Origin: Candidatus Poseidoniales archaeon
GTDB taxonomy: Archaea > Thermoplasmatota > Poseidoniia > Poseidoniales > Poseidoniaceae
DNA length: 64,000 nucleotides
Reading direction: 5' to 3'
Assembly (NCBI GenBank): GCA_009887095.1
Contig: QXYC01000008.1
Location: 1-64,000, forward strand
The position numbers and the translations under genes were made by a program. Below, piece by piece: positions 437 through 53,539 of this stretch. The notes under the pieces were generated by a model. The model made no database searches. It was not told the origin of the DNA and saw nothing but the letters and a program-made list of their open reading frames with translations. Position 1 is the first letter of the stretch, and each line of letters opens with the position of its first letter.

Positions 437-2152
437 ATGGCAAGCGACTTGGAAATTGCTCGAGCAGCAACACTCGAACCGATTGAAACCATTGCATGGA
501 AATTAGGCATTTCAAGCCACGAACTTCTCCCAATGGGAAGAGGCATGGCCAAAATCACCTGGGAAGCCCTAAGCGAGCGCTTTTCACGCCCTCAAGGCAG
601 CCTTGTCCTCGTCACATCTGTCAACCCCACTCCGTTTGGCGAGGGAAAAACCGTGACGACAATCGGACTCACTCAGGCCCTGTGCGCCATTGGCCAATCT
701 GCCACATGTGTGATTCGGGAACCATCAATGGGTCCAGTGTTTGGCATCAAAGGCGGTGCAGCGGGTGGCGGTCAATCCCAAGTTCTCCCAATGGAAGAAA
801 TTAACCTCCATTTTACCGGCGATTTGCATGCCGTTACTTCTGCGCACAACCTTCTCTCAGCCCTCGTCGACAACCACATTAAGCATGGAAACGCAACAAA
901 ACTAGATCCAACTCGCATCTTTTGGCCAAGAGTCATCGACATGAACGACCGTGCGTTGAGAAATGTCACTGTTGGACTTGGTGGGCCAGCGAATGGCAAC
1001 CCACGGCAAGACCGATTTGATATCACAGCAGCAAGCGAAGTCATGGCCATCTTGGTCCTTGCAAAAGACTACGCAGATTTGCGAAGCCGTCTTGGCAACA
1101 TCGTGGTTGGGCAATCCACAGATGGAAACCCTGTCAAAGCAGAAGAAATGGGGGCCGCAGGAGCCATGGCACTGCTGCTCAGAAACGCATTCCTACCAAA
1201 TTTAGTTCAAACACTGGAGGGGAATCCAGCGTTCATTCATGGTGGACCATTTGCAAACATCGCTCATGGCAATTCAAGCATCATAGGCGACCGTTTGGCA
1301 CTTGGCGCTGCAGACATTGTCGTCACTGAAGCAGGCTTTGGATCTGACATGGGGGCTGAGAAATTCATGCACATCAAGGCAGCGAACTCGGGTAAAGCAC
1401 CAGATTGTGTGGTTATGAACGTCACCGTCCGCTCCATGAAGTTGCACGGCGGTGCTTTTGGTAGCCGTGGAGGCTATCGCCCAAGTCGAGAAGAATTAGA
1501 TGCTGAGAACATTGAGGCCGTGAAGCAGGGGGCTCAAGGGAACTTAGACCGTCATATTAGGAACATGGCCGGATTTGGCATGCCCGTTATCGTATCAATC
1601 AACAGATTCACGGCAGACACCGATGGAGAACTCGAGGCTTTAACGGCGGCTGCCCGAGCAAGCGGAGCGCATGCAGTCACCCTTACAGAAGTCCATGCCA
1701 ACGGTGGTAAAGGTGGAGAACCACTGGCCAAAGCCGTCGTTTCTGCAATTCAAGACCATGTTGCAGCAGGCCGTCCATTCACACCACTCTTCCTGAAAGA
1801 TGCCCCTGTCATGGAGAAAGTCAACGGAATCGCAAAGCGAATCTACAAGGCGGAAGGCGTCGTTGTCGAAGCGAAAGCAAAGAAACAACTGGCAGCAATC
1901 GAATCATGGGGCTATGGGCACCTTCCCGTGTGCATGGCGAAAACACAGTACTCATTCTCACATGATGCAGGTCAACTTGGAGCTCCAGTCGGGTTCACAA
2001 TCCCAGTCAGAGAGTTCCGCCTCAACGCTGGAGCAGGATTCATTGTGGCCGTCCTTGGGAACATGATGACCATGCCTGGTTTGCCAAAGCGACCGGCTGC
2101 GGCAGATATGGACATGGATGAAAACGGCCAACTAACCGGCGTATTTGGGTGA
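437..2152 (+). CDS. fhs: Formate--tetrahydrofolate ligase
   Basis: 571 residues, full length for the family (about 550-560). It joins formate to tetrahydrofolate with ATP to give 10-formyl-THF, feeding purine synthesis and one-carbon metabolism in the cytoplasm. The P-loop is TPFGEGKT at residues 65-72. Other family blocks visible are REPSMGPVFGIKGGAAGGG, the block around INLHFTGDLHA, and TEAGFGSDMGAEKF. The ATG at 437 gives the normal family N-terminus. Its stop is 5 bases before the pelota ATG, so the two genes are probably co-transcribed. Fhs is widespread in bacteria and patchy in archaea, so an ancient transfer is likely. Confidence 0.95.
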   Translation: MASDLEIARAATLEPIETIAWKLGISSHELLPMGRGMAKITWEALSERFSRPQGSLVLVTSVNPTPFGEGKTVTTIGLTQALCAIGQSATCVIREPSMGPVFGIKGGAAGGGQSQVLPMEEINLHFTGDLHAVTSAHNLLSALVDNHIKHGNATKLDPTRIFWPRVIDMNDRALRNVTVGLGGPANGNPRQDRFDITAASEVMAILVLAKDYADLRSRLGNIVVGQSTDGNPVKAEEMGAAGAMALLLRNAFLPNLVQTLEGNPAFIHGGPFANIAHGNSSIIGDRLALGAADIVVTEAGFGSDMGAEKFMHIKAANSGKAPDCVVMNVTVRSMKLHGGAFGSRGGYRPSREELDAENIEAVKQGAQGNLDRHIRNMAGFGMPVIVSINRFTADTDGELEALTAAARASGAHAVTLTEVHANGGKGGEPLAKAVVSAIQDHVAAGRPFTPLFLKDAPVMEKVNGIAKRIYKAEGVVVEAKAKKQLAAIESWGYGHLPVCMAKTQYSFSHDAGQLGAPVGFTIPVREFRLNAGAGFIVAVLGNMMTMPGLPKRPAAADMDMDENGQLTGVFG

Positions 2153-3694: not shown

Positions 3695-4384
3695 ATGGAT
3701 GAAGATGTCCAAGCGGCCGCTGCTCGGCTGGTGCGCCGCCTCAAAGAGGGTGGCCACACCATCACCGTAGCAGAATCTTGTACAGGAGGATTGCTCGCGA
3801 GCGCCTTCACAGATATCGCAGGCGCCTCACAATGGTTCAACCAATCGTGGGTCACCTATTCCAACGAATCAAAAATGACTGAACTTGGCGTCAGCGCCGA
3901 TCTTTTGGAAAAGAAAGGGGCTGTCTCAGCTGGTGTCGCTATGGCCATGGCACAAGGTGCTGTCAAGCGAGCAAATGCAAGCATTGCCATTTCAATCACC
4001 GGCATCGCAGGACCATCCAACGATGGAACCAACAAAAAAGTCGGCATGGTGTATGTGGGCATTGCCTCCTCAACAAACTGGGCGAACGCCGAATCGACAC
4101 AAATAGGTGGAAACAGAGCAGAAAATAAAATTGCATTCGTTCATTTTGCTCTTCTCACAGCCATTCGTTGCTGGGACGACGCAATGGCCCTTGCAGAAGA
4201 GAACAAGCGGGCTGAAGATGAAGCCTTGATAGCAAAGGCAAAAGCGGAGGCCCTCTTTGAAATCGAACGGGCTCAGCGGGATGCTGCTGCTCGTGAAGCC
4301 ACGCCCTGGAAGGGTGATGAATGGGATGGTACAAATGGCCAACCTGACAAAGATGATGAGATCGATTCGGACATCGAGTGGTAA
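3695..4384 (+). CDS. CinA C-terminal-domain amidohydrolase (PncC-like)
   Basis: 229 residues. The first ~150 are a standalone CinA C-terminal domain: AESCTGGLLASAFTDIAGAS, then SWVTYSNESKM, KKGAVSAGVAMAMAQGA and ISITGIAGPSNDGTNKKVG. In bacteria this domain deamidates nicotinamide mononucleotide (PncC) in NAD recycling. There is no N-terminal MoCF-like domain, as in other short forms. The last ~70 residues are an Ala/Glu/Lys-rich helix followed by a very acidic tail, an extension not typical of PncC. DP1 starts 33 bases downstream. Confidence 0.85.
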   Translation: MDEDVQAAAARLVRRLKEGGHTITVAESCTGGLLASAFTDIAGASQWFNQSWVTYSNESKMTELGVSADLLEKKGAVSAGVAMAMAQGAVKRANASIAISITGIAGPSNDGTNKKVGMVYVGIASSTNWANAESTQIGGNRAENKIAFVHFALLTAIRCWDDAMALAEENKRAEDEALIAKAKAEALFEIERAQRDAAAREATPWKGDEWDGTNGQPDKDDEIDSDIEW

Positions 4385-7021: not shown

Positions 7022-10000
7022 TCAAGCCTTGGTGTCGTATGACAAATCGTTCCAGGTCTTGAGCAAAGCGCCCTTTCCTACGCTAGGTGCGTAGGTCAAC
7101 TGGATTGTCACGTCTTCCAAAGGTGTGCCGTCTGGGGCGTGGGTTCGCACAAAGATGGTGTCTCCAGTGTTGAAGGTCGAAACAGAGTCTGCTCCTTCCT
7201 TGTTCACTTGGTCGACAAAGGTGACGAACTCGTCACTGTTGTCCGGGTTGAACCCGTAGACACCGTTTGTGTCAGCCATGTTGGCATCATGCGTTGCCGT
7301 GTTACCGTCTGCATCAGTGTAGATGATTCGGAGCACAACAGCTTGTGTTGCCAAGTCTGTTTCAGACGCTTGCACTGTAATTCGCCAGTGGCCGGTCTCA
7401 GCATCGAAGCCGTCGATGTCTTCGATATCGAAGGTGATCCGAGGAACACCCTTGGTATCGACATCAGCGAGGCTGCTTGCCCAAACGTAGATCACACCAG
7501 AGAGCACGACGGTGATTGCGACCATCAAGATGGTAGCAATCACTGGGCTCACTGCAGCGTCGTCATCGACCATGGTCTCGGCGACTTCTTCTTCATCGTC
7601 AGCACGGCGGCTGGAGAAGGCGAGGGCGCTCACGAAGAGACCAGTTAGGCTGACCACAACGATGCTTGGTGCAAACGATGGGACCGAGGAGGCACCGATG
7701 GTACGAACAACGCTTGGGAGCGATTGGCTCGTAGCTTCGAAGGTGCCAGGTGGCTGGTTGGCGTGGTTACAGATCGAGCCGACTTCAAGGGACGTCATTC
7801 GGTTGTTACACCAGTTGCTGTCCTCAAGGAGTGGTCGACGCTCGGAGGTCTGGGTAGCGTTGCTACCGTACTGTCCAGGCTTGGACCAGTCAGCGCCCTG
7901 GATGCCGTTGTTGTTGGCACGGTGGGATGCTGGGTCGTCGGTCTGGAAGCGGTCCGAGACTGCTGCAGTCAAGTCACATGGGTCGTTCAAGCAGGTCAGA
8001 ACATCCATTTCAACCCACACATTGGTGGTATCCTTGGTGATGTAGACCATTTCATCGAAGTCCACAGTTGTTCCATAAGATGGAACAGTGTAGTATCGAG
8101 TTGGCTCGTCTTCTGTGTGTCCGTCCGAGTGGAAGGTCACAGCAAGCATGTGATCGTAGGTGAACGGTCCTTCGTCGCCACCAGCGCCGACAGCAACAGT
8201 GACTGGCACATAGGTACCGGTCATGATGTTGGTCACGCCGTTGAAGTCGAAGCCAGAGACGCTGTCTAGGTAGTAGTCAGCGACTTGCTCACGAACGTTT
8301 TCGACACGGACACCGATTTCGATGTCATCTTGGCCTTGTTGGTAGGCTGCGATTGGCATCAATGTGGTGTCGTAGTTTGGCACGTAGCTTGGGGCAGTTG
8401 CGGTGTCCTCGAGGACCAAGCGGATCTTACAGAACTCGGAGCCAGATGGACCGATTTGGTGGATACCGTTGTCGTTGAGGTAGTCAATTTCCCAATCCTT
8501 AGCGTTGGTCGTTGCGTCAGGGATCAGTGTGAACACGAGTTGGTCACCAACGATGGTTGTGGTGAAGTAGTTCGTGTATGTGCACTGAACAGTTGGTTCA
8601 ACGGTCCATGTGAGGTCAGAGAGGTTGTGGTCAACATCGGACATCACTGCGCTTAGGTCGTAGGTCAAGTTCTCGGTCGACGTGTCGTCTTCCATCAAAC
8701 TGATTTGCCAAGGTGCCACAGGGATGGAGCCGTTACCGGCTTCCATGACCGTACCGTTCTGTCGGTCCCAAGCAGGGATCACAGGTGCGTCGTTCACTGG
8801 TGCAACGGAGAAGTCGACATCGTAAGGAATCGCTTCACTGTTTTCCACAGCGTCGTCAGACAAGGTGAGGGTCACCGTACAGGTACCACCGAGTTCGTTG
8901 TTGGTGTTCTCGGTAATGACAAGCTCGTTGAGTGCGTTGACTTCAACGCTGAATGCGATACAGTCAGTCACGCTTGCGTCCCAGTCGTAGACTTGGCGGT
9001 CAGGCGATTGCTCGTTTGCCATGTCACGGACGTAGGACTTGCTGGCGTTCGACACGTTTCCGAGGAACTTGCTGTGGACACCAAAGCCTTCTGCAAGGAT
9101 GTTGGTGAATGCGTCATCTTGGGAGAAGATTGGCATGCAGTCAAGGTCTTCCACGTTGCAGATCACAGGTGCGTCGTTGACGTTAACAACCTCGAACGTG
9201 ATGTTCTTGGTGTCAGACAATCCGTTGCTGTCGACAACAATGAACTCGTATTCCATGGTACCGAATTGGTCATCCAATGGCGTGATGGTCACTGCGTGTC
9301 CGTTCTGGGACCAATCGACGAGAACATTGTCGTAGGCGACAAGGTTTCCAGCGGTGGAGGACCAGGTGAGGTCTGCTTCGATGTCTTGCACGTCGTCAGC
9401 CATGTTGGTGAGGCTGAAGGTGTAAGCACCGGAGTCTTCGTTCACGGTCACGTCGGCCAACGAGGTCTGGATTTCTGGGCAGGCACGAGCCATGTCCATG
9501 TTCAGGTTCACGTTGGTAGCGAGGGAGACATCTTCGGTGGTTGCCCAGTCGAATTCACAGTCTGCTTCGGTCTTGATCATCACATCGTAGTTCTTTGCTG
9601 CACTTGGCGTGTTGCTGCCCTTGTAGGAACGGTACACAAGCACTTCGTCAGAAATAGCACCTGTCAACAAGTCATCGTGCGTGAGCTCGACGGTCATGTA
9701 TTCAGTGAAGCTCTGCAAGGTGTTTGCACTGTCGATGGTTTGAGTCGGGTGAACCGTACTCACATCTGCAGTGGTCTCGCCTTGGACGATTGCCACGATG
9801 TCAACTTGGTCAGGAGTTCCACCAATTCGTGAGAATGGGATGGAAATCTCTGTCAAGGATCCAGAGGATGCCATGTCGACAGTTGCCGTGCTGAGGGAAG
9901 TTGGTCCCCAGCCGAGGAAACCGTAACTGTACAAGTCGTAAGAAGACTCACTGTCTGCCCAAAGCACGTAGTTTGCTTGGAACGGCAGTGTGTGTTCTCC

Positions 10001-19000: not shown

Positions 19001-20551
19001 GTAACTGTAAAGGTATGTGTTTGCAGTAATCTTCTGTCCGATTCCAACAGTACCAGAGTTCGTTTGTGCCGAGGTGATGTAACCTGCTGCGGTGCTTGAA
19101 GCACAGGTCGTCGAGGAAGTACAGACGTCTGCAGTCTTCCATCCAGAGTTACCGATTGAGTAGGTGTCAAACGTTGCACTGTTCCAAACCGAGGTAATCA
19201 TTCGGCGCGAGTTTGCGTTGTTGTAATTGCTACCTGTGAGCACTTGGCTTCCTGTGAGCGCACCCGAACATGTGCCTGTTGGCATCGTGTGAGAGTACGA
19301 ACTGAGCGTTGGCGAACCACAGTTTTCCAGAACTGCTGCCTTCACGGATGTCGACGAACTACCGGATCGGTAGTTGAGGTACGACTTCCACTTGATGGAG
19401 TCAACAGTTGCTCCGGATGGGAGAGCGTTGCTGGAAGTGAATGTGTAGCGGTGCCATGGCATGTATCGCATCTGTCCGTAATACTTGTAGGTATAGCGGG
19501 ATGTACTGGAGTAACAGTTGCGGTAGTAACGGTAGCAGTATCCACCGGCATTGCTGTAGACCTTGATGGTCGGGTCGATCGCAAGCGGGAACACACGGTC
19601 TTCCGACATCAACCAGTCTGCTTCCACAGCGGTCGTGATGATAACTTGTGGGCCGAAAACTTGGATGAAGAAAGTAGCCGTGTATGGTGCATCCGAGCCT
19701 TCTTCAATAACAAGAGGGACTGGGATCTCGGCAAGGAGTTCACCGGTCTCAACGTGTCGGATTTCGAGGGCTTCCTGGGTTTGAGTCATATCTTCGCCGA
19801 GCATTTCATCGCCGAGGTAGAGCGCAAATCCAGATGGAATTTGGATGGTTTCCGAAAGACCGAACCAAGCAGCGTTTGGCTCAAGCACAGGTCGCTCGCG
19901 GATGACGAGGTTCTGCTTGAGTTGCGTCGATTCGACAGTGTAGTCGAGGTCGAAGCCTTCTGCGACTGGGTACCTTAGGACGTTTCCACCAACAGTCACG
20001 CCATCTTGCGAAGGAGCGACTTGGTATGGTTGAGGCGCAGTGCCTGTTTCGTCCAAGGTAACGACCATTGGGGCGATGCCCGTGATGATTGGATCAACGA
20101 ATTGGTTCGGTTGAACTGCGACACCGTAAGCCATTTCAGGAGCGAAATGTGTGGTGTACGTGTTTTCAGTCACTTCCCAACCGTTCGTAGTTGCGACGAC
20201 ATTCAAGTTGATGTCATCCCATGCACCACTGTCGTCCATGTAGTGGACAGGTGTTGCGTGGTTTAGCTGCGCAAACTTGCCATCTTCTGTGACGTAGGTC
20301 TTGGTCGTTTGGTCTCTCATGCCGATTAGTTCATCGGATGGTTCATATTCATAGTCAGTGTCTTTTACAGCGTCTGGCAAAGCAAAGAGATCACTCTCTG
20401 CTGTGTCGTTTGTATCTACAAACTCCACGTCGCTTGCGTTGTTGTCGACGAACCCAGCCATAGGCATGAGGGCCATCAAAGCGCACAACAGCAGTGCGAT
20501 GCCAATGCCGCTGAAGACTGACGTTTTCTTGTTGTTCTTATTTCCCAACAT
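7022..20551 (-). CDS. Giant secreted surface protein with C-terminal pilin-like module
   Basis: 4509 residues, one uninterrupted 13.5-kb frame. Residues ~12-35 form a signal peptide or anchor. Residues ~36-330 resemble the region preceding DNRLRE-type modules, ending FPLAIDPTIKV, followed by a Cys/Tyr-rich DNRLRE-like domain (~325-530). Next come Ig/FN3-like repeats, then long right-handed beta-helix stretches with NNT/GNT turns (about 1330-1740 and 2900-3050). A Tyr/Gly/Pro-rich segment lies at ~2224-2341, a P-domain-like beta region near 3070-3165, and cadherin-like domains (VNEDSGAYTFSLTN, VNVNDAPV) at ~3690-3900. A membrane segment (4295-4317) is followed by an acidic linker and AVSPVIATILMVAITVVLSG, the hallmark of archaeal type IV pilins. 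Probably an adhesin or cell-surface stalk; no enzyme motif was recognised. A TATA box lies ~55 bases upstream. Confidence 0.85.
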   Translation of the reverse strand: MLGNKNNKKTSVFSGIGIALLLCALMALMPMAGFVDNNASDVEFVDTNDTAESDLFALPDAVKDTDYEYEPSDELIGMRDQTTKTYVTEDGKFAQLNHATPVHYMDDSGAWDDINLNVVATTNGWEVTENTYTTHFAPEMAYGVAVQPNQFVDPIITGIAPMVVTLDETGTAPQPYQVAPSQDGVTVGGNVLRYPVAEGFDLDYTVESTQLKQNLVIRERPVLEPNAAWFGLSETIQIPSGFALYLGDEMLGEDMTQTQEALEIRHVETGELLAEIPVPLVIEEGSDAPYTATFFIQVFGPQVIITTAVEADWLMSEDRVFPLAIDPTIKVYSNAGGYCYRYYRNCYSSTSRYTYKYYGQMRYMPWHRYTFTSSNALPSGATVDSIKWKSYLNYRSGSSSTSVKAAVLENCGSPTLSSYSHTMPTGTCSGALTGSQVLTGSNYNNANSRRMITSVWNSATFDTYSIGNSGWKTADVCTSSTTCASSTAAGYITSAQTNSGTVGIGQKITANTYLYSYTSNSGSYNSYIEITYSGGTDADAPVSSFVPYTGITSFVEGARTFFTTLTDLSGIDTTTANAPTLNYALNNGSFTSVTATSIGTCSSTSSECRFKATTPTISAGDYVEYYWKYQDLNVANGANVGYDPALTGSQNTPTPYYFAVDDVEDAGTAKKLTVLTTDVHASSYYSPGANQYIDRQMTHFDSNDEFYFEFDTSSCGTGSSSCFYSSSYYFYGNWIAQHTTTASSGYNGMGGTRSNIDQLHKDDGGYLTISAANGPGMNLMFLYDSGEDAFAMVGIGTATDIDEALSGGTSADSSRSYGYTNAYKITLGSDYGGMFGKFGFGNETGGAGTNANRLCVTSNGFTYFWRSPYSSYNDCSPAYYYAGAYNSITNYKWSGFALGMGYYGRIASSGDVTYKFGNVAPTPDTFKPEFTHSALADSHSKTRTITASLADGGDPPTGLNVSTSAGVGPTMYYRVTPDGGTAGTWTAVVMTQESGSTRAECSLDSCDWSADIEDLERGDTVEYYMKAQDVSTVASGINVKTTSTETFSVGDPNKMFIVEWRDMGYSTTDTCTYQAVFYDVTNEIEFKYDDACTNSYDAATVGFMDQTRTMGQTIRHRTSTQYITGTNPHPANYRISTTATGSSYESFDRGLTGLVNADASDVMGSSSGTPSGYYCASSYYWNTWANKCADNIPMPDGFNFTYFGTDYNYTDSNDRINLGRHGNMHFLSSGSTALVRSMTTWYGNMPQLPYSSSSFARAGTIAPYWSYYGTYYCYQNSNYDCGVYYRTMPFEGKGTDVSSDITQDTTWDATDSPIRINPSGDYLTISADLTIQPGVTVQIADGKGISFDGTCDQMTLNGNSTDHILFEGANGAEWKGMAFTAACSTGTDDRHVFNYVDFKNTSDAAISAGSRHGSSPSTNSNVGNFTMDHVTFTDVGSAFSHGSGQGTVVAMSNFNVDGTDASCFDFAEDTIAILTEGAMKNCNQDGNAGDGAIVNVDGSTGGSLFLENTTILNAYVNLIDVDFASVTVTNVTATATTAQSGTALGSAAGSGSDVMLNNFIADDYATVSIEAMDSIVMTTVDFGTAPVTITPGGTVSTGSGAAGDHAVFDDVTMGDFSMTRTQPGTFDDVTMGAFTMTGNAITSDLVNMNLMDADAVTVSGCGWNIAINGGEMDGLSSNGCSVAANTVTIHESEFTHSNTVDPMVYARYSVVTLGETDVTTSGTGLADFAYADTNSDVRLIEVLIDGSTTAYDGTDGMVTSSSSSEIWYGGIATAYTYRNAVINGALTAVYKSGHYVSATLVDSSGSELFEVGSHITDGSGMATVWVITSDESGNNYDDHNLRAFGAAGQNETMYTDSWYPTDGTYTVGDTIDLLLEPAPVEFDQAGMDCAWIAANTTLATTYNAGLNAYVFDSTPMTLAADLELDGCNIILLGSVLKVKSTATSSPVLTISDGGSLTVSVSPDTLAVGTVKAVSSTYGLHLDIQDGTLALEGGVLRDVAQDSTTDAALVIGSGATLVMSDSATVYGSSAPSSTMATVKVNGGTVDISDSSIINTGQTGTALWVEASGGSIENVIVKNAAVGIQAYNGAPQVDGFTATDNTVGVDIYGGMSLPTIYRSTLLSGENTGWKTYKIDLSTYLGNDFLQVGYNSIYGGGNAHPTYNYATSKYYMITDRYNIELEDTDGNAWNITQSSDLGYYPYSAADPASGVGSTATYAAGATGGVPSWSCDYYGYSYGPNYPSSFEGYFYYMWRYWPGGPGSTPSYPAYYEAPDQFGFGWENIEGVSPTGSYAYYPYHYWGYYYTSYHGGTNGPFTPPEGYGGGYPSSYNVCLDYAYSYYMSPGQGARLTMPTVDISAANISKVSMYIDVLHNRADNFQDRLEFVARAGDNAADLGGYVRESGTPLFKDGSITGADTGIEIGGAYAAGNLENIAVTSPTDAGLEITGQAAAIIDGLEVDGGTYGVLIGNSASGSVDLKNLDLDSQTSAGVYYAKDLSGELTGTVTNSGGAAFKYGTNTDNPVSMTGMTISSNAVGIESAGSAEITLTDMTMNNVEDVVITGSSQVDFVEGTIDVDSVDVTGTGLFTRMRTVDITLTADTNAVAGATVTLLDADGGAAGAATTGANGVASDIKFVTATVDSGGKDVPSLAGYTALTVAEVEYDYTSSTDNIADFRYADVGVSLTDAAGNTESIALTQKISHRVCWYSSSSAYQTVAPCDGSFSTSSSRTLSDGDGGTVTEYGYYGGISSSLSNEVVMVDVPYIYLNGGTDYNFNGSTLLATGVYDFYGNQRWYSKSPGGTGFYMNDGGMYGVAVDEDTDDAYGIQLGDYFYNYANLVANNSIFSNIATIEVANGYNWNNNYNWEVEELAITNSTITHYKGYTSLNNAIQVTDICMQVSGGDGGIISGNTFNNCGVGIMLERATYYSYHNGVLGADNITIADNTFNDGGEIADVWFYTSGDADSAIVTGNTFNSGDTSNGAIAFYPGGHEGAVISDNTINTLANGIYMNGAQDFTLTGNTINGNGDAAHAGIDINGGYGDVDNNTLIDADGGIVMDSMTTPPAPTSSLCTIRSYSYNTGPTTCTVTLAAGKTMAVNIQTDSWGYEASITIDKPDGTQDAWTTNTFASNTAYEPLVTYTDAGNYTLTLRDSYGDGGTDVFMVEGGAAGGYSGPTIADNTIELSAGRVSPNAVGLLMEDCAGVTINSARNTVTLSDGAMIISDCDVTDADSTFQGDGTSSTYGIDADNANGDILTLSGTSISGYDTGVLKTSGDLILTGSADLAGDSYGVYVDDATVTAITATVDGGTTGTGLYVVDSDDVWVYPMDASGLVGMYVENSPFRWDGGTVDATTALEVVESQGTVENMTWADADNQINAGTNAYVTSIGNTIDASKLIVDSSATIDEANLFSMTSTHLTSAPTKEVSMLIQSTDGTRASYVSTSFQPEVMNVDGSDADWNGGNALNPSGYAMPGMMSGDGTNDMMVTYIEGDDLYIGLTGEDLSTSDLLIYLSVDGAGSSTGYNLGGEHTLPFQANYVLWADSESSYDLYSYGFLGWGPTSLSTATVDMASSGSLTEISIPFSRIGGTPDQVDIVAIVQGETTADVSTVHPTQTIDSANTLQSFTEYMTVELTHDDLLTGAISDEVLVYRSYKGSNTPSAAKNYDVMIKTEADCEFDWATTEDVSLATNVNLNMDMARACPEIQTSLADVTVNEDSGAYTFSLTNMADDVQDIEADLTWSSTAGNLVAYDNVLVDWSQNGHAVTITPLDDQFGTMEYEFIVVDSNGLSDTKNITFEVVNVNDAPVICNVEDLDCMPIFSQDDAFTNILAEGFGVHSKFLGNVSNASKSYVRDMANEQSPDRQVYDWDASVTDCIAFSVEVNALNELVITENTNNELGGTCTVTLTLSDDAVENSEAIPYDVDFSVAPVNDAPVIPAWDRQNGTVMEAGNGSIPVAPWQISLMEDDTSTENLTYDLSAVMSDVDHNLSDLTWTVEPTVQCTYTNYFTTTIVGDQLVFTLIPDATTNAKDWEIDYLNDNGIHQIGPSGSEFCKIRLVLEDTATAPSYVPNYDTTLMPIAAYQQGQDDIEIGVRVENVREQVADYYLDSVSGFDFNGVTNIMTGTYVPVTVAVGAGGDEGPFTYDHMLAVTFHSDGHTEDEPTRYYTVPSYGTTVDFDEMVYITKDTTNVWVEMDVLTCLNDPCDLTAAVSDRFQTDDPASHRANNNGIQGADWSKPGQYGSNATQTSERRPLLEDSNWCNNRMTSLEVGSICNHANQPPGTFEATSQSLPSVVRTIGASSVPSFAPSIVVVSLTGLFVSALAFSSRRADDEEEVAETMVDDDAAVSPVIATILMVAITVVLSGVIYVWASSLADVDTKGVPRITFDIEDIDGFDAETGHWRITVQASETDLATQAVVLRIIYTDADGNTATHDANMADTNGVYGFNPDNSDEFVTFVDQVNKEGADSVSTFNTGDTIFVRTHAPDGTPLEDVTIQLTYAPSVGKGALLKTWNDLSYDTKA

Positions 20552-20958: not shown

Positions 20959-23900
20959 TCAGTAATCCCAATCTTTGTTATCTTCGTCATCATTTCCACC
21001 ACGGGAAAGGATGAACGCACCGACCACAAATGCAACGAGAACAACGCCTGCAATCATGCCCCAGGCCACCATTGGGATTTCTCCTTCTGGTGTTTCGCCC
21101 GTGACGTTGGTACCGTCGTCAACGTTGGATGTATCAGCATCTCGCTGGTAGTCGATGCTGTTGAGGGCAGCTGCTGCTGCAGTGTTGCCCAATGCATCGA
21201 CTGGAACAGCCGTGAAGTAGTAGGTGTAGGTTCCTGCTGCTTTTGGCTTGTCAATCACCACATCAGTGGTGGTTGTCGAAACGCACGTATCTGGCATGTT
21301 TGCTGTATTGAAGGTGCCACGTTGGTAGCACACGTTCCATGAAGCGACATCGTATGTTTCGCCAGTTGCGTCCCAATCGACGATCCATGTTTCTCCACTT
21401 TCCGAGACTGCGAAATTCATGGCAGACACGCCGCCGTCAACAGACTTGTCAGCGGTCACGTTTCCAACACCCTTTGGTGTCGAACATCCAACAGTGTTAC
21501 AGATTTCAACGACCACATTGTAGTAAGCGTTGTGAACGGTGTTTGATCCGGAGTAGGAGAACGTGGTTGTCCCAACACCCAATCCGGTTGTGAATGCGTC
21601 GGTGCATCCAGCATCGCCTTCACAGATGGTAATGTCAATGCTATCGGATTCAAGCATGGTTCCGTCGACGCCCCAGTTGAGGACAATCGCTCCGCCCTTT
21701 GCTGCTGCTGCACTGAATCCAGTGATGCTTGCGTCTGGGACATCTGCTTGAGCGAGTGAACCGCCCATGAGCACGAGATCACCAGCAGAGAGCACTGGGC
21801 TGTCTGCAGGGAGTGCGTATTCGAAGACTTCGGTTGTTGCGTCAACATCGCTTGCTTCTGATGCGATAAGGGTCCACAGACCTGCATCAGTCACATACCA
21901 AAGAGAGGTAGCACCGAGATCCTTTGCCACGGTGACACTCATCGATTGTTCGAGGACGTCCGAGGCCGAGAAGGTCGTGCCTGGTGCGTACTCGACAGCT
22001 CCGACTGCACTGTATGTGCCGGAATAGCCTGGCAACTCCTTGTTCTCGTAGTTTGAGAGAGCAGCATCTGTAGCTGTGATTGAGAATTCACTTGGTGCGT
22101 AATACTTGATGGCGTATGATACAGTGATTCCAGCATCAGTGGTAGCAGAGCCCCCACCGTTGTTCCAGATGGTCAGCATCAATTCTTGGCTGGTCGACCC
22201 GCCGTTCGCATCGTAAACTGTGAACGAGACTGGGAAGGCGGTCACGTACGAATCTAGGATTGGGATGGTGCACGATTGTGTTTGGCTGCTTCGTTCGCAA
22301 CCTGGCAACTCGTTGCCTGCATTTGACCACGAGTACTCGAGGCCAGCAGCCGATGGGTCGTCAACATCGAACACCGTAGCAGACATTTGCAATGGTGTCT
22401 CTTGTCCGGTGAACAACTCGCCTTCATTCATCAAGTCAAGGGAGAGAATCATTGGGTCGTTGTTACGAACATCGACGGTCATGCTTCGATCGTTGTTGGA
22501 GGGGCGTGCATCGTTGGTTTTTCCTTCGAGCGTCAATGAAGCGGCGAAAGTGTGCTCACCGGTGTCGAGGTTGGTCATCATGCAAGCATATCCGGTCAAT
22601 TCACCAGGGAGATCAGGGTTTCCGTCGCCAGTTGAGTCATAAAGTGAGGTTCCGAGTTCCTTGTGCATGTAGGAAGGTTCGAGGCCAGTTTCGCAGGAGT
22701 TTGCGACAATGGTTGATTCAACGCCTTCTGGGTTGGTGATGGTGAGCGTCACGTTCCAGTCGTAGTTAACGGATGCATCGCTTCCTCGGTGCTCAACTTC
22801 CACGTGGAAGTAAGAGATACCAACGTTGAGGTCTGCAGGTGCATCGTCGCTCATCATACTGGTAGGGTTACCAGTTCCATCAGCGTTGTAGCCTTGAGCG
22901 ACCGTCATTCGAGCGACACGGATGTCGTGATATGTTGCTTCGCTACCGAGAATTTCGTCGTCATCAGTGCTCGGATACGAGTCTTGAGTGAAGGTTTCTT
23001 CGCAAATCTGGTTCCACGTCTCGTTTGTGGCAGGATCTGTTTCTTGGCAAGAATCAAATTGGCTGTATTGAGTGTAACTCACCAATTGAGCTGTAAGCCC
23101 GTAGGATGCTTCCTCTGCGGAGCCATCGAATGTCAAACTGCCGCCGTAGGTATACTCGGTCAAGTAAGGGAGCACGGTTCGGACATCTGAGTCGACGGCC
23201 GGAGGATCGGTTGATACATTGGTGAATGTTTCAACAGTGGTCGAGGTTCCAACCACTAGGTCGTAGAATGCATCTGCGTAGAGGTCTGTGCCGTCGTCCG
23301 CTTGGAGAGCGGTAATGTCGCCACTGCCCTTGAGGCGAATGGTCACGCCACGTGGGTCAAAGGTATCCGACCCGTTTGCGATAACAGAAAGGGTCCAAGC
23401 TTTGACACCTGCACCAGATTCTGCCACCTTGCCGCTGTCCCATGAGAGATCGACTTGAATATCATACCAGTTTTCAACGCTCACTTCAATTGTTTGTGCG
23501 TCGTTTCCTGCATCGGAATCGGAGGGGGTATCAGCGAGAACTTCGACGATGTAGTTACCAACAATTGGCGTCCATTCAATCTGATTTCCACCGTACCTGA
23601 GAATATACTTGCCGCCGCCAAGGACATCGCCTTGGGCCAAGGAAGTGAAATCACATAGGTTCGCATTTCCACAGATGACATCTGTGTTTTGCCATTGGAG
23701 ATCGTTTCCTGCTGCGTCCTTTGCGAGCATTGTTGGATTTCCATCACCGTCAGAGAGGAAAACGCTGACGGTGTAGGAGAGTTCTGTGATGTCAACATCG
23801 CCACTGTTTTGGATGTAGGCTTCGAAGTTGGTGATCTCTCCGGCGTTCAATGTGTTTCGACAGCCTGCGTTTGTACAGGTTGTTTCTTTCGGGCTTGTGA

Positions 23901-24042
23901 TGGCAATGACTTCAGCATCTGCGCCGGAGCGAGCACTGGTTTCTTCGACATCAACGGTTTCTTGCAACTCGGCCATGTCGATGCTTGCCATGAGGCTAAG
24001 CAACAACATTGCAACGAGAATCATAGGGGTTTTTTTATTCAT
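20959..24042 (-). CDS. Large secreted Ig/FN3-type surface protein with C-terminal anchor
   Basis: 1027 residues. The N-terminus is a signal peptide (KKTPMILVAMLLLSLMASI). Next is a CARDB-like domain (FEAYIQNSGDVDITELSYTV), several Ig-like domains with paired Cys residues, and two FN3-like domains near the C-terminus (~780-960). The end is a membrane anchor (VAWGMIAGVVLVAFVVGAFIL) followed by a short acidic cytoplasmic tail. It is most likely displayed on the cell surface; binding partners are unknown. A GGAGGT ribosome site six bases before the ATG supports the start. Its architecture resembles the 1636-aa protein of the archaellum operon. Confidence 0.85.
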   Translation of the reverse strand: MNKKTPMILVAMLLLSLMASIDMAELQETVDVEETSARSGADAEVIAITSPKETTCTNAGCRNTLNAGEITNFEAYIQNSGDVDITELSYTVSVFLSDGDGNPTMLAKDAAGNDLQWQNTDVICGNANLCDFTSLAQGDVLGGGKYILRYGGNQIEWTPIVGNYIVEVLADTPSDSDAGNDAQTIEVSVENWYDIQVDLSWDSGKVAESGAGVKAWTLSVIANGSDTFDPRGVTIRLKGSGDITALQADDGTDLYADAFYDLVVGTSTTVETFTNVSTDPPAVDSDVRTVLPYLTEYTYGGSLTFDGSAEEASYGLTAQLVSYTQYSQFDSCQETDPATNETWNQICEETFTQDSYPSTDDDEILGSEATYHDIRVARMTVAQGYNADGTGNPTSMMSDDAPADLNVGISYFHVEVEHRGSDASVNYDWNVTLTITNPEGVESTIVANSCETGLEPSYMHKELGTSLYDSTGDGNPDLPGELTGYACMMTNLDTGEHTFAASLTLEGKTNDARPSNNDRSMTVDVRNNDPMILSLDLMNEGELFTGQETPLQMSATVFDVDDPSAAGLEYSWSNAGNELPGCERSSQTQSCTIPILDSYVTAFPVSFTVYDANGGSTSQELMLTIWNNGGGSATTDAGITVSYAIKYYAPSEFSITATDAALSNYENKELPGYSGTYSAVGAVEYAPGTTFSASDVLEQSMSVTVAKDLGATSLWYVTDAGLWTLIASEASDVDATTEVFEYALPADSPVLSAGDLVLMGGSLAQADVPDASITGFSAAAAKGGAIVLNWGVDGTMLESDSIDITICEGDAGCTDAFTTGLGVGTTTFSYSGSNTVHNAYYNVVVEICNTVGCSTPKGVGNVTADKSVDGGVSAMNFAVSESGETWIVDWDATGETYDVASWNVCYQRGTFNTANMPDTCVSTTTTDVVIDKPKAAGTYTYYFTAVPVDALGNTAAAAALNSIDYQRDADTSNVDDGTNVTGETPEGEIPMVAWGMIAGVVLVAFVVGAFILSRGGNDDEDNKDWDY

Positions 24043-24048
24043 ATCTAT

Positions 24049-24097
24049 ACCTCCGATGGTTCGGTACTCCCGAGCACGTCATGCGTCGTATTTATAC
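24049..24097 (-). promoter_or_regulatory. TATA box and Shine-Dalgarno of the 1027-aa gene
   Basis: Minus-strand GTATAAATA (24089-24097) lies ~50 bases before the start codon, predicting a short 5' leader. GGAGGT (24049-24054) precedes the ATG by six bases. It is among the best-defined promoter and start pairs in the window. Confidence 0.65.
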
Positions 24098-24289
24098 TAT
24101 AGGAGCAATGTTTTGTGAAATCGCTTTGAAATGGGTGATGGAATCGAAGCGAATTTGCTCACTAAATAAGAGGGGAAACACCGTTCAGCAAGGCGATAAG
24201 ACATCCATCACTCTTCCGAATTTGGGGGGCAAATGGAATTTTATCGGTGAAACGCATTGAAATGGAAGTCATCTCCAAGTGAATCCGAC

Positions 24290-27200
24290 TTATGCTTCGC
24301 GTAACGCAGCAGACGGTGGAACGAGCGATGCTTTCCGAATCGGATAGGCAGTAGCGGCCAAAACGAGAGCAAGACCGCCAAAAATCACGAGGGAAATGGT
24401 AGTGATAGGGAGGCTAAAGCTTGCACCTTGATCCTTCCAAAATGTCTCGTAAAGGGCACGATGGAAGCCGATTGCAATCGCAGCACCGTTCAGCATCCCT
24501 AGAACGGCGACCCAAACCACTTCGATCATAAACGTCGACATAACCATGCTTCGCCGATAGCCGAGCGCTCTGAGAATTCCGATTGTTTTGGTGCGTTCAG
24601 ACACCGAGCGGACAGTCACCACACCAATTCCTGCTATTCCGACGATCAACCCCAGCGAGAGATACGCTTCGAAAATAGCCAACAGTGCCAACACGAGTGA
24701 CTGGATGACCATGACATCCTCTGCGATGATCGAAACTTGTACGCCGTCATCGTTCAATCCGAGTTCCAATTGCTCTGCGAGCTCCTGTGAGGCAAGGCGA
24801 ACATCAGAACCCTTCCCCATTGGCGAAATCGGCGCATCAGAGGCAACGAAACTGGGGCTTGCTTGAGCCCCGTCTTCAACGCTCACATACATCCGAGTGA
24901 GGCGAGCGTCAAATTGTTCGATGGCTGGTTCATCAGCAATCCACACCCCTGCTGAAAACAAATATGAAGACTGTTCCATAAAGCCGGCAACCTTGACAAT
25001 TTTGGCATTCCCTGGGTTGGAAGTATCAATTAGCGAAATTGATTCCCCAATTGAAAAACTTAGGGTGGAAAGTCCACTCCCATCGGCGACAGATTCGAGT
25101 CCAAAGGAAGCATCAACGATGACCAAATCCTCTCGGTCGCTGACCGTCATCCACACCTGTTGTTCGGTCGTACCAAGGCTCGGGTCCCATGTGTAAAGTG
25201 GCAATCCGCCGTGCTCTGAGAAATTGTCATCAAACCCACGCAGAAGGTAGGGCATCCTGTCACCTTCTGCATTCTCGAGGAACACCTGGCTTCGATGAAT
25301 CCTCGCTACTGAATCAATGGAATCAGCAGACGCTTGTGACAGATTCCAATCTGCATGGTCAGCAGGTAGTTCGATCGGACGAGCCCGAGACCCCGTGAGC
25401 AGAAGCTCATAATCGCCTTCTGCTTCCTCGACAAAGGAACTGGAGTAGTTATCGAATTGCTCCGCATACCCGCTGAGAACTACCACTGAAAAGACGGTGA
25501 TTGAAAACATGCCCATCACGACAGCCGTGCGAACAGGCGAAGACAACGGGTGAGCGAGGGCAACTGGCAGCACTGGGCCAAATCGCTTGGTCAAGCGCTT
25601 CGACTTCCCTAACCGCCCCACGAGAATCGGTGCAGCGCTCGTCAACAAAAGGACTCCAGCAAACACTTCCACAAGCCCAAGGACAATGAAGGAGAGTTCG
25701 TCGGGCGTCATCCCTTTCCGAATTGGGTCGAGGCTGTGCAGCCCAACGGTCCACACGAGCAAGGCTAAGCCCAGCGAAGCACATGTGTTCCGTCCAGCGT
25801 GCCGATGAAGATGAGCCCAGCGAGCGTTCCTTCGTTTCAGAATCGAAGGGAGTTCAACCGTTAAGAAAGGTACCAAAGCGATGAGCAAACAAACCCCCGA
25901 CACGACCCATAGGAAGTAAGCAAAACCACTGCTTAGGCCAAGCACGGCAAGAATGGCCAAAGAAAGGAGGCCCGCACCTAAGAAGAGAATTTGCACAAGC
26001 ACGAGCAACCACGAAACGGATTGTGCTTGCGGTTCTTTACCACCACGCAGCGCAACGACAATGTTCGTCCGGGCGGTCCACACGGCTGTGGCCCAAAGAG
26101 TCCCAATGGCCAAGAGGAAGCCCCATGACCATCCAGCAAAGATCGAGGCCCAAGCCCATTCAAACAGAAATTGACCTGAACCAACTGAAGAAAACATGCT
26201 TTGGAATCCAATGCTGATAAACCAAGCAAGACCCAAACCCCCGACAGAACCAACAATGCAGGAAAGGCTTGCCACCATGGCCCCTTCCATGACAGCAAGG
26301 GAACGTGCATCTGATTGGGACATACCAAGGGACCGAAGGGTTCCGAATTCGCTGCGCCTTGCTTCTGCCAGCATGAGAACAATGGTGAGTACAAGCAGCA
26401 CTCCTGCCGCGATTGTAAACGAACCAAAGACGAGGAACATGGCAGCTAACACACCAGACGACTCGGAAGCCAACGCTGCTGCGTCGACCTTGACAGGTCG
26501 GACGTTCAAATTGAGATCCTCAGCCGAAGCCAATTCATCAAGCCACAAACGAAGCGTTGCCTCAGCATCATCACCTGCGTTCGAGGGTGTCAAAACAATC
26601 AGGCTGCGTTCATTCTCACCGGCAGATGCAAGTTCTTCTGCATCGGTGAGGCTTACCAATCCCAGCACAACGGCATCAAGTTCAGCCAATCCCTCAAGCC
26701 CTTCGACATCGGAGTAATACCCTGCATGTTTCAGTCTGTAGGCTGTGTCGTCACCGAATGCGTAGGGAATCAATCCCTTCACCCAAAACGCATCTGTGCC
26801 CTCAAGATCCAGTTCGAGAAGGCGCTGGCTCACTTCGATGGTCCCGTTTTCGGTGGCAAAGGGGGCGTTTTCACCGCCAAAAGCCAGCAACATTTGCGGC
26901 ACGGTTCCAAAACCGCCTGCGGTTGAGAGGACCGGCAAACGGATTGACTCAATGGCTCCGGTGGTTGAACTCCAGCGAACCAATCCGCCTTCAGAGGTGC
27001 ACCATGACTGTGGAGGAGTGAACAGGACCAAAGAAGCGACACCGTTGCATCGTTCATGTTCGTTAGGCTCGCTCTGGCTTGATGAATCAGCGGGCCAGTC
27101 TCCCTCATTGATGGGTTCAAAGAGAGCGTTTCGTTCAACCTCGGCAGAAGCGTATCGATCGATGGACAAGAGGCCTTCGATCTCAATATAGATTCCATCC

Positions 27201-28867
27201 TCAATCACCAATTCAATGCCGACTATTTTGGAAGGAACTGGAACTTCCAAATCCCGCATCGAGTGAATTGAAAAATCAGAACTGAAGGTATGGAGTTGAA
27301 TGGATGACTCATTTGCTCCAACAGCCCACCATTCTCCGTTATGGGTTGCCACAGCATGCATCGTTCCTGATGAATCGTAAGAGGCCCACGCCTCCTCGTC
27401 GAGTTCGGATTCAGAACCGATGATGAGCCCATCTGAATGCGCAACGAGACCATAGTGGCCATCTTCAGAGAGGGTGAAGTCAAGCACAGAAGATCCATCA
27501 GGAACACGCCACATCCACGCCTCACCTTTGCCGTCAATTTGGTAGCCAAACCCAGAATCGCTGACATGCCAAAGGGCTCGGTCGCCTTCAGCGAGCGTGT
27601 GAATTTCAGTGGATGCCAGCGTAAGCAGTGGTTCGTCCTCGTACTCGACATCAATCAGAGGCACCTGGAGTACTTCCAACATCGAATCCATTCCAAGGGA
27701 TGTCAGGTTCCCCCGTAAAGCAAGCGTATCGTGACCTGACAAGCGTCCAAGGCCTCGGTCCGATGAGAGGGTCAGCGCTCCAGTCGAGGCATCCTCGTCG
27801 ATGTTCAACCCTACATCTTCGGTGCGAAGCACATCATCGAGGTGAACTTCGATTCCTTCCACAAGAGCAGGAATTGTATCTGCGTCATCGTATGCATCAT
27901 CAACAGCATAGTACACGGTGTTGAGCACTCCGTCCATGCTTTGCAAGCGCTGAGCAGTGGCTAAGTCGGTGAACAGTGCAGCAGCAGATGTCCCCGCTGC
28001 AGCGCCTTGACCAGTGTTTGGAACCACCTTGAGCACTGTGGCCAACGACGTCGAGCGTTGCCTTTGATTTTCTTCGGTGACATACCAGCCTAATTCAATA
28101 ACATCACCTTGTGCAAGGTCAAGTTCCTTCGCCAAAATGGCGTTCACAGCAACATGGAGTGTTGTGTCTGCTTCGTTGGACGCAGCGATATCTGCATACC
28201 GAAGCCCGTCGTTCTCACCTATGTCTGGCCAAATCCCCTCAGCATCAATCGTGCTGTTGAACGCCAGCCATGTAACACTGGGGAGCGAACGAAGTTCCCC
28301 TTCGACGCTTACGCCTGCAACCAGACCTTGTTGTTGGCCTAACAACGCTCGATCGAGTGTATCGTCGCCCTGAAGACGAGACCAGACATCGTTGGCCACA
28401 TTCTCTGAGATGGTGACGCGCTCACCTGTGGACAAATCCAACCCCGAGATGGTGATGTCAGTTTCACCCCATGCCCCTTCAATTTCGTACTGAACGGTTG
28501 CGTCAAGGGAGTCGCCCACCACGAGTGAGGAAGTGATGATTGCAGATGCAATCACCAATCCAAGCATGAGAAGGGCGGCTTGCCTTTTGCGTCTCAACAC
28601 AGTTTCCCGTGCAAGTCGCCAAACCACAAGGCGTTGTGGAACAAGCAATGGTTGGATGAAGATCATCGACACAATCCCGAAGGAAAAGGACCCAACAAAG
28701 CGGGTTGCTCCTTCGACAGAGCACCAACTCAGCAGCCCAAAAGCGAGGGTGGCGTCAACAACGGGTACCACCACCAATCCGACGCTGCAGAGGAGGCTGA
28801 TCTTGTGCGCACGGGTGAGCCCCCATGTCCCTGCTACAGCCACAATGGCTGTCAAAACAAGCAACAC
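24290..28867 (-). CDS. FtsX/MacB-type ABC transporter permease with large ectodomain
   Basis: 1525 residues, about twice a usual MacB permease. Several N-terminal membrane helices lead to the first FtsX unit (AALLMLGLVIASAIITSSLV, then a ~650-residue ectodomain, then a helix set with MLAEARRSEFGTLRSLGMS). Further helices follow, then a second FtsX unit with its own ectodomain and the SERTKTIGILRALGYRRS coupling motif near the C-terminus. The first ectodomain holds beta-strand repeats with Trp/Gly turns (residues ~430-560) that look propeller-like. With the ATPase upstream it probably exports or releases lipoproteins or other surface material. The GTG start at 28867 is 20 bases after the ATPase stop; an in-frame CTG at 28885 is better placed relative to GGAGG. 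Confidence 0.85.
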   Translation of the reverse strand: MLLVLTAIVAVAGTWGLTRAHKISLLCSVGLVVVPVVDATLAFGLLSWCSVEGATRFVGSFSFGIVSMIFIQPLLVPQRLVVWRLARETVLRRKRQAALLMLGLVIASAIITSSLVVGDSLDATVQYEIEGAWGETDITISGLDLSTGERVTISENVANDVWSRLQGDDTLDRALLGQQQGLVAGVSVEGELRSLPSVTWLAFNSTIDAEGIWPDIGENDGLRYADIAASNEADTTLHVAVNAILAKELDLAQGDVIELGWYVTEENQRQRSTSLATVLKVVPNTGQGAAAGTSAAALFTDLATAQRLQSMDGVLNTVYYAVDDAYDDADTIPALVEGIEVHLDDVLRTEDVGLNIDEDASTGALTLSSDRGLGRLSGHDTLALRGNLTSLGMDSMLEVLQVPLIDVEYEDEPLLTLASTEIHTLAEGDRALWHVSDSGFGYQIDGKGEAWMWRVPDGSSVLDFTLSEDGHYGLVAHSDGLIIGSESELDEEAWASYDSSGTMHAVATHNGEWWAVGANESSIQLHTFSSDFSIHSMRDLEVPVPSKIVGIELVIEDGIYIEIEGLLSIDRYASAEVERNALFEPINEGDWPADSSSQSEPNEHERCNGVASLVLFTPPQSWCTSEGGLVRWSSTTGAIESIRLPVLSTAGGFGTVPQMLLAFGGENAPFATENGTIEVSQRLLELDLEGTDAFWVKGLIPYAFGDDTAYRLKHAGYYSDVEGLEGLAELDAVVLGLVSLTDAEELASAGENERSLIVLTPSNAGDDAEATLRLWLDELASAEDLNLNVRPVKVDAAALASESSGVLAAMFLVFGSFTIAAGVLLVLTIVLMLAEARRSEFGTLRSLGMSQSDARSLAVMEGAMVASLSCIVGSVGGLGLAWFISIGFQSMFSSVGSGQFLFEWAWASIFAGWSWGFLLAIGTLWATAVWTARTNIVVALRGGKEPQAQSVSWLLVLVQILFLGAGLLSLAILAVLGLSSGFAYFLWVVSGVCLLIALVPFLTVELPSILKRRNARWAHLHRHAGRNTCASLGLALLVWTVGLHSLDPIRKGMTPDELSFIVLGLVEVFAGVLLLTSAAPILVGRLGKSKRLTKRFGPVLPVALAHPLSSPVRTAVVMGMFSITVFSVVVLSGYAEQFDNYSSSFVEEAEGDYELLLTGSRARPIELPADHADWNLSQASADSIDSVARIHRSQVFLENAEGDRMPYLLRGFDDNFSEHGGLPLYTWDPSLGTTEQQVWMTVSDREDLVIVDASFGLESVADGSGLSTLSFSIGESISLIDTSNPGNAKIVKVAGFMEQSSYLFSAGVWIADEPAIEQFDARLTRMYVSVEDGAQASPSFVASDAPISPMGKGSDVRLASQELAEQLELGLNDDGVQVSIIAEDVMVIQSLVLALLAIFEAYLSLGLIVGIAGIGVVTVRSVSERTKTIGILRALGYRRSMVMSTFMIEVVWVAVLGMLNGAAIAIGFHRALYETFWKDQGASFSLPITTISLVIFGGLALVLAATAYPIRKASLVPPSAALREA

Positions 28868-28887
28868 GGTAAGGGCGAGGAGCAGGA

Positions 28888-29586
28888 TTATTCCTCCTCA
28901 TGTTGAGTAACTGGGTTCACAATGAGTCCGTCATCCATTTGGATGACTCGATCGCACAGCGTTGCGATGTTGGCATCGTGAGTTACGATGAGAAAGGTGG
29001 TGTCTTGTTCTGAATTCAGTCGCTTGAGAAGCGTGAGAACTTCTGCCGATGTTTTCGAGTCCAAATTCCCAGTTGGCTCGTCGCAAAGAATCACTGAAGG
29101 ACGGTGAACAATGGCTCTGGCCACTGCGACTCGCTGTTGCTGCCCACCAGAAAGTTCGGCGGGACGATGTTGACTTCGCTCTTCAAGACCGACATCTTTC
29201 AATGCTTCAAGCGCTCTCTTGCGGGCATCACTAGCCCCATGGCCAAGGAGGAGCAACGGAAGTTCTACATTTTCAACTGCGGATAGAACTGGAAGCAGGT
29301 TAAAGTCTTGGAAAATGAATCCAAGATACTTGGAGCGCATTGAGGTGCGTTCATTATCTGAGATGCCAAAAAGCGGTTGGTTGTTGACCGTGACGGTGCC
29401 TGCAGTGGGTTCATCGATTCCCGATAACACATTCAACAGGGTTGTTTTACCACAACCAGATGGACCCATAATGGCCACCATTTCACCCGTTTGTAGTGTG
29501 AGGTGAACACCCCGTACAGCTTCCACTGTGGAGGTTCCTGAAGCATAGAGTTTCCAAACACCATTGGCTTGCATCGCTGCGCTCAT
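28888..29586 (-). CDS. ABC transporter ATP-binding protein (MacB/LolD type)
   Basis: 232 residues, normal for the family. It has Walker A GPSGCGKT (41-48), a Q-loop in FIFQDFNLLP, signature LSGGQQQRVAVARA, Walker B VILCDEPTGNLDS and the H-loop VTHD. The LSGGQQQR and DEPTGNLDS forms are typical of LolD/MacB/FtsE-like ATPases that drive FtsX-type permeases. The permease gene follows in the same operon 20 bases downstream. A divergent MoaD-like gene starts 51 bases upstream, so the promoters of both must lie in that short gap. Confidence 0.93.
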   Translation of the reverse strand: MSAAMQANGVWKLYASGTSTVEAVRGVHLTLQTGEMVAIMGPSGCGKTTLLNVLSGIDEPTAGTVTVNNQPLFGISDNERTSMRSKYLGFIFQDFNLLPVLSAVENVELPLLLLGHGASDARKRALEALKDVGLEERSQHRPAELSGGQQQRVAVARAIVHRPSVILCDEPTGNLDSKTSAEVLTLLKRLNSEQDTTFLIVTHDANIATLCDRVIQMDDGLIVNPVTQHEEE

Positions 29587-38292: not shown

Positions 38293-38314
38293 GCTAAAAG
38301 GTAAGGGAGTGGTC

Positions 38315-38323
38315 TTTTTATCC
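38315..38323 (-). promoter_or_regulatory. TATA box of the Asp-rich repeat gene
   Basis: Minus strand GGATAAAAA is centred ~26 bases before ATG 38292. In archaea transcription starts ~25 bases after the TATA box, so the message would begin at or next to this ATG. No Shine-Dalgarno is seen, in keeping with a leaderless transcript. Confidence 0.5.
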
Positions 38324-38422
38324 TTCCGTTTGGCATTGTAAAGCACAAATTCACCAGTTCTTCTTCGTTTCTGCTCTCACTTAGTGGTATTGGCTTTAGG
38401 ATTGCTCGATGAAAAGAACTTC

Positions 38423-49004: not shown

Positions 49005-49014
49005 ACATCATCCC

Positions 49015-50730: not shown

Positions 50731-50742
50731 TCAGATTCCTCC

Positions 50743-51471
50743 TCAGCTCACCGCGGTGATGTCGACAATGAAGCCCATGCTTGGTTCAACACGCCATCCA
50801 ATGGAAGTCTGTGTTGGACCTGCAGCCCTCAAAAATCGAGTGACGACAATGTTTCTTTTGATTTCACCACCAATCATGGTGGTTTGTAGGTCGAGAACAA
50901 CTTCAGCGGATGCCCGCATGTTGTGCATCAGTTTGTGATCCATTTCTTCGGGGTCCACACAAAGCATGAGTGAGCGGCCATCAGCACAGATTCGACGAAG
51001 CCTCTGCATCATCGAAAATCGCTCCGTTTCATCCAATGAATCTGGCATCAACGAACTTGCGGCGTCGATAATGACAACATCTGCTAAAGCGATGGCATCG
51101 GATTCAAGCAATTCTTCCAAGCCCACATTGGGGAGCGCTTCAGCGATTGTTCCAAAACGAGAGAACACCATGAGTTGCCCTTCACGGATGGCATCGGTGA
51201 TGCCATACCCAATGGACTCCATTTGTTCAATCCATCCTCGTGTGGTGAGTTCCGTGGTGATCACAAGCACTTTCACGCCATTTTCGACCATTCCGTACGC
51301 AAGGCGCTGAGAGATCAGTGATTTTCCACCACCGACTGCACCCTGCAACACATATAGGGAACGATTTGGCATGCGCAATCCCATCGAGTCGGCCAGCGAA
51401 TCAGTTTCTAAATCATAAGGAAAACCATCTTCCATTGGCTTGTGTGCTTTCAAAAATGGATCGTCTGTCAT
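50743..51471 (-). CDS. arlH: Archaellum regulator ArlH (FlaH)
   Basis: 242 residues, RecA/KaiC-like. Walker A is GAVGGGKS (44-51) and Walker B is DVVIIDAASS (131-140). The conserved TTELTTRGWIEQM helix is also visible. ArlH binds ATP without turnover and forms a ring with ArlI and the Arl C/D/E cytosolic ring. Its start overlaps the arlG stop by four bases. Confidence 0.93.
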   Translation of the reverse strand: MTDDPFLKAHKPMEDGFPYDLETDSLADSMGLRMPNRSLYVLQGAVGGGKSLISQRLAYGMVENGVKVLVITTELTTRGWIEQMESIGYGITDAIREGQLMVFSRFGTIAEALPNVGLEELLESDAIALADVVIIDAASSLMPDSLDETERFSMMQRLRRICADGRSLMLCVDPEEMDHKLMHNMRASAEVVLDLQTTMIGGEIKRNIVVTRFLRAAGPTQTSIGWRVEPSMGFIVDITAVS

Positions 51472-51965: not shown

Positions 51966-51968
51966 ACC

Positions 51969-53490: not shown

Positions 53491-53539
53491 AATTCCTCCT
53501 CTAAGGGGATGCCCTCTCGAGCGCCACCCTCAGAAGACA

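Follow-up and report, generated by a model that had tools for sequence, protein, structure and literature searches.

The window, that is, the whole stretch of 64,000 nucleotides analysed here, comes from a Poseidoniaceae (marine group II) genome, a draft MAG that is 68% complete. Between positions 7022 and 20551 of its minus strand lies an open reading frame for a giant surface protein of 4509 aa, a call supported by full-length relatives. According to hydropathy, this protein has three strongly hydrophobic stretches only, at residues 9-37, 4289-4315 and 4328-4364. The first belongs to an N-terminal signal-like segment (residues 1-37; 20441-20551, minus strand, as are all the features of this gene). 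The second is a transmembrane helix, TM1 (7607-7687), which begins with a conserved PSFAPS, ends in RR and follows the last ectodomain of the long extracellular part (residues 4081-4285; 7697-8311). The third contains a type IV pilin N-terminal helix, AVSPVIATILMVAITVVLSGVIYVWASSLA, at residues 4333-4362 (7466-7555). Between the two lies an acidic, predicted cytoplasmic loop (residues 4316-4332; 7556-7606) with the motif hydrophobic-x-[DE]-D-[DE]-x directly before AVSP, and the protein ends in a beta domain (residues 4369-4509; 7025-7447). The original prediction had recognized both a transmembrane helix and an internal pilin segment behind it; the helix is better placed at 4289-4315 than at its 4295-4317, and the conserved Ala of the segment is residue 4333 instead of about 4332. 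The long ectodomain contains no curated Pfam domain, the only Pfam match in the whole protein being Pilin_N, and among NCBIfam models a tandem-95 repeat appears below threshold at residues 3702-3800.

Upstream of the giant gene and on the same strand, the region 20959-29586 encodes a surface protein of 1027 aa, whose C-terminus has an ordinary TM segment and an acidic tail, and a MacB/FtsX-type permease of 1525 aa. It also contains an ORF of 232 aa, possibly the permease's ATPase; these genes and the giant perhaps form one operon. A 1750-aa surface protein with thrombospondin type 3 repeats, part of which resembles the myxobacterial cohesion protein MtsC below the cut-off, is found at 33094-38346 (minus strand). 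An archaellum cluster (47202-54648, minus strand), some 27 kb away from the giant, encodes two archaellins, FlaF/FlaG-like proteins, a KaiC-type ATPase (FlaH-like), a T2SSE ATPase (FlaI-like) and a T2SSF platform protein (FlaJ-like). No type IV pilus (T4P) operon adjoins the giant gene in the window.

The pilin nature of the internal segment, which begins at residue 4333 and reads AVSPVIATILMVAITVVLSG, was assessed with curated profiles. Pilin_N (PF07790) matches residues 4333-4377 with 32.3 bits in the whole protein and 37.3 bits in the tail, against a cut-off of 25.2, and TIGR02537, the archaellin/type IV pilin N-terminal domain, matches with 33.5 bits against a cut-off of 20. In addition, profile comparison with the helix retrieves the solved archaeal pilins 8fj5 (E 1.2e-9) and 8gi2. 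These matches, together with the recurrence of the segment in relatives, bear out the pilin-type module proposed at the end of the giant and identify the segment as a genuine type IV pilin helix at the level of profiles, the helix alone being the part of the tail that is securely pilin-derived by this measure. In known pilins, a short leader precedes the class III segment, which is N-terminal; here, and in all relatives of the giant as well, the helix is internal and lies past TM1.

Comparison between genomes established that this architecture is conserved. More than a hundred genomes have the giant with its pilin-bearing end, and the two Poseidoniales families share one layout: a TM helix, RR, an acidic loop of ~14-20 residues, AVSPVIATIL[M/L]VAITVVL and the beta domain. 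Full-length relatives of 4513-5507 aa were recovered from at least 16 genomes, again in both families. The layout is the same in 78 of the 80 loci fetched with the tail; of the two exceptions, one (L095) begins inside the tail and the other (L044) has unread bases in the stretch used. Since the 86 distinct tails of our collection were gathered by the pilin pattern, 244 genomes were also searched, as an unbiased check, with queries made from the flanking domains and not from the pilin segment: in the giants, a single ORF contains both halves, and the pilin helix lies between them in all 24 readable cases. None of the giants found among the relatives lacks the fusion, so the refutation that the original prediction had named, a separate pilin gene together with a frameshift, fails. 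Across the 86 tails, the helix has 2 forms over its first 18 residues, compared with 47 forms of the preceding TM1. The helix is thus nearly invariant while its synonymous codons are about average (same-codon rate 0.44 vs 0.39), which indicates that the constraint acts on the protein. Two candidate cases were rejected: stops inside the match in two genera (g13 and g15) are natural C-terminal stops and do not mark an unfused form, and a 2041-aa frame in another genome (G141) is a GC-rich open frame whose pilin is of the ordinary N-terminal kind, not a fusion.

The distribution of the giant follows that of the pilus machinery. Among 60 Poseidoniales genomes, it was found in 36 of the 42 with a T4P-type T2SSF and in none of the 18 without one (Fisher 1.5e-10, a genome-level value that ignores kinship and overstates independence); the six T2SSF-positive genomes without a detected giant are drafts. 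T4P assembly genes thus occur in the same genomes as the giant. The giant accompanies the non-archaellum T4P and not the archaellum, as a double dissociation between two genera demonstrates: one (g7) combines the giant with pilins and T2SSF pairs, archaellin being absent, and the other (g4) has archaellin, with both Pilin_N protein and giant absent. It is important to note that the giant and the T4P are inherited together, so that independent events are few. The prepilin peptidase family PF06847 is present, with modest scores, in the genera that have the giant and in g4; it gave no match in the window genome itself, which is 68% complete, and Peptidase_A24 (PF01478) gave none in any of the 60 genomes. 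Because the giant is found only where pilus machinery is present, it is probably linked to the pilus system, as far as gene content can tell.

The domains that flank the hairpin were compared with known folds. In an AlphaFold model (pLDDT 71), the helix is followed by a confident beta domain, with most blocks at 80-89, whose best Foldseek match is an archaellin (E 1e-4, TM-scores about 0.34), archaeal filaments and potassium channels being also among the top matches. A plain HMM of the beta domain found no match among free pilin heads, and hhalign gave a weak one (P 0.004, probability 8%); the modelled domain may therefore be described as weakly similar to pilin heads. For the domain before TM1, a second fold model (429 aa, pTM 0.62) points to no clear family, its best match being RbmA at a TM of about 0.15. 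Four rare paralogs (L204, L205, L207 and L218, from four genomes of family f1) are devoid of exactly the TM-loop-helix hairpin and have the flanking domains joined directly; since the hairpin alone is missing from them, the pre-TM ectodomain and the C-terminal beta domain are probably extracellular partners. Comparable arrangements were observed in a genome from another family of the phylum (G100). A copy at a contig edge has PSFAP-TM1, a basic loop GKRRKKGYRRDRD and then AVSPVIAIILMVAITIVLAG; a 353-aa protein has two TM segments with the pilin motif absent. At a further locus of this genome (L250), a TM protein that carries the pre-TM domain (781-1389, plus strand) and a lipoprotein-like beta-domain protein (1492-1989, minus strand) are convergent neighbours, as though a fusion had come apart and one of its halves had been inverted. 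These arrangements appear comparable to the giants' tails by layout, a likeness that falls short of established ectodomain homology.

Taken together, we consider it somewhat better than an even bet that the tail is a membrane hairpin whose pilin helix acts as a docking or assembly handle to a non-archaellum T4P machine. In this model, the giant would be secreted and anchored in the membrane at the cell surface, where it may have an adhesive role. From the signal-like beginning of the protein, the RR behind TM1 and the orientation that pilin helices usually take, we infer a cytoplasmic loop with both flanks outside: TM1 would enter the membrane, the short acidic loop would lie in the cytoplasm, and the pilin helix would return outward to the small beta domain, which would pair outside with the ectodomain just before TM1. 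By docking to, or assembling with, the non-archaellum T4P machine, the helix would couple the giant 1:1 to a pilin-like subunit, at a pilus base or tip. The second membrane anchor and assembly handle of the original prediction fits a genuine pilin helix that is internal, conserved and co-occurs with T4P machinery; its pilin-like reading extends poorly to the beta domain, given the weak likeness of that domain to pilin heads.

The hairpin model can accommodate a loop that is processed. The loop would then carry an internal class III signal that prepilin peptidase cuts at [DE]x/AVSP, and one gene would yield the anchored giant and its own pilin of ~177 aa in a strict 1:1 ratio; the pilin would join the filament, either as a minor subunit or to prime it, and the two products would probably remain together through the paired ectodomains. 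We hold this sequence of events tentatively, at a little under an even chance, and a prepilin peptidase cut before or after the conserved Ala, as such, at close to even. The candidate junction, ETMVDDDAAVSPV (region 4325-4345), would be cut before A4333 or V4334, on what is predicted to be the cytoplasmic side, and PF06847 occurs in the same genera. Despite a variable mid-loop, the residues at -2, -3 and -4 are acidic in 98, 91 and 92% of the 86 fused tails, which share the pattern hydrophobic-x-[DE]-D-[DE]-x-AVSP. This pattern resembles the Haloferax PilA2 site DSAV (PMC4371748) and the DDSAVSP of the solved pilin 8fj5, which reads NDDSAVSP, so that a cut one bond earlier is possible; the basic loop of the G100 copy ends in RDRDAVSP, like the PilA1 site DAVS (PMC4371748). 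We applied a FlaFind-like rule, a charged residue at -2 and Gly or Ala at -1, with example sites from PMC4371748. The rule holds at one of the two bonds in 39 of the 86 tails, six of them like PilA2 DSAV, but at neither bond in the other 47, whereas 30 of 35 free pilins agree with it. Furthermore, the residue before the conserved Ala is acidic in 1 of the 86 fused tails, against 83% of the 35 free pilins, which makes ordinary cleavage less likely. A cut pilin would also leave TM1 behind when it enters the filament, if the paired domains do not hold it.

The systematic loss of the charged residue adjoining the conserved Ala is what would be expected if the hairpin stays uncut, the pilin helix being a permanent second TM segment and a static anchor or base plate that touches the T4P platform. 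The hairpin-less paralogs, in which the two ectodomains belong together, and the 353-aa relative in G100, with two TM segments and no pilin motif, are in line with such an arrangement. However, the near-invariance of the entire AVSPVIATILMVAITVVL core exceeds the needs of a plain anchor, and T4P helices normally exit the membrane upon assembly. An uncut hairpin is, in our judgement, a plausible outcome whose chances lie somewhat short of even.

The release of a free 183-aa pilin by an internal translation start at Met4327 (codon at 7571-7573) was also proposed originally. The position of the Met at base 7573 and the length of the product are as then given, the ATG is in frame in the window, and 34 of the 86 tails have Met at this site. 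The peak of synonymous constraint of the last 700 codons (obs/exp 1.26) falls just upstream, at residues 4303-4317, but is not significant over ~46 independent windows. Moreover, position -6, where Met4327 stands, is occupied by M in 34, I in 24, L in 19 and F in 9 of the 86 tails; it is a conserved hydrophobic position. Such conservation accounts for the Met found in frame in the window and speaks against translation beginning there. The loops of two representatives (L089 and L096) contain no ATG, GTG or TTG, and no Shine-Dalgarno-like stretch was seen by eye before Met4327. An internal start is, consequently, very improbable. Finally, an assembly join, a frameshift or a chance resemblance, as could be imagined from the draft state of the window genome (68% complete) and from one relative (G003) whose giant is split into two frames, is refuted by the comparative data and has practically no probability left, since the fusion is shared by two archaeal families and by independently assembled genomes, including the single-contig G074 and the nearest named chromosome, CM001443.1, whose tail is 99% identical.

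With regard to known systems, the hairpin model brings the giant closest to the modular type IV pilins (PilB and PilC of Streptococcus sanguinis, CofB, TcpB and GspK), which likewise combine a pilin helix and a large functional module, a 1:1 effector, in one chain (PMC8179133). Those proteins are defined by an N-terminal pilin module followed by the functional module, which is C-terminal or inserted in the head, and the largest named in that work has 860 residues; in the giant the order is reversed, as a module of ~4,300 residues precedes an internal helix placed after a TM segment. Very large ordinary pilins (L128 and L129, open frames of 1429 and 1046 aa), with an N-terminal helix and large C-terminal modules, coexist in some relatives. 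The archaeal adhesion pilins (Haloferax PilA1-6, 8fj5 and 8gi2; PF07790/TIGR02537) have a core, AVSPVI(A/G)xILMVAITVxL, nearly identical to that of the giant, and PilA2 DSAV shares its [DE]xAVSP context; unlike them, the giant has an internal segment, no short leader, a mostly uncharged residue before the Ala and a weakly related head. PilY1-type pilus adhesins and archaeal DUF2341 proteins are also large surface proteins thought to work with T4P, but these exist as proteins of their own, which attach to minor pilins or to the tip, whereas the giant is covalently joined to its pilin segment. The best reading of its sequence is that of a modular-pilin relative in reversed order, which would tie a giant surface protein to T4P whether it is cut or uncut. 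We found no earlier description of such a giant-pilin fusion in the open-access literature that we searched.

Poseidoniales are uncultured and constitute the most abundant planktonic archaea in the surface ocean. Their attachment has been discussed by way of archaella and thrombospondins (PMC6461757). The giant described here is a specific and conserved candidate for a connection between a giant surface protein and T4P in this order, and it breaks the rule that a type IV pilin segment opens the protein. It poses the question of whether an internal site is cut by prepilin peptidase or an uncut pilin helix serves as a docking anchor; internal cleavage, if true, would mean that a whole giant protein can serve as a prepilin leader.
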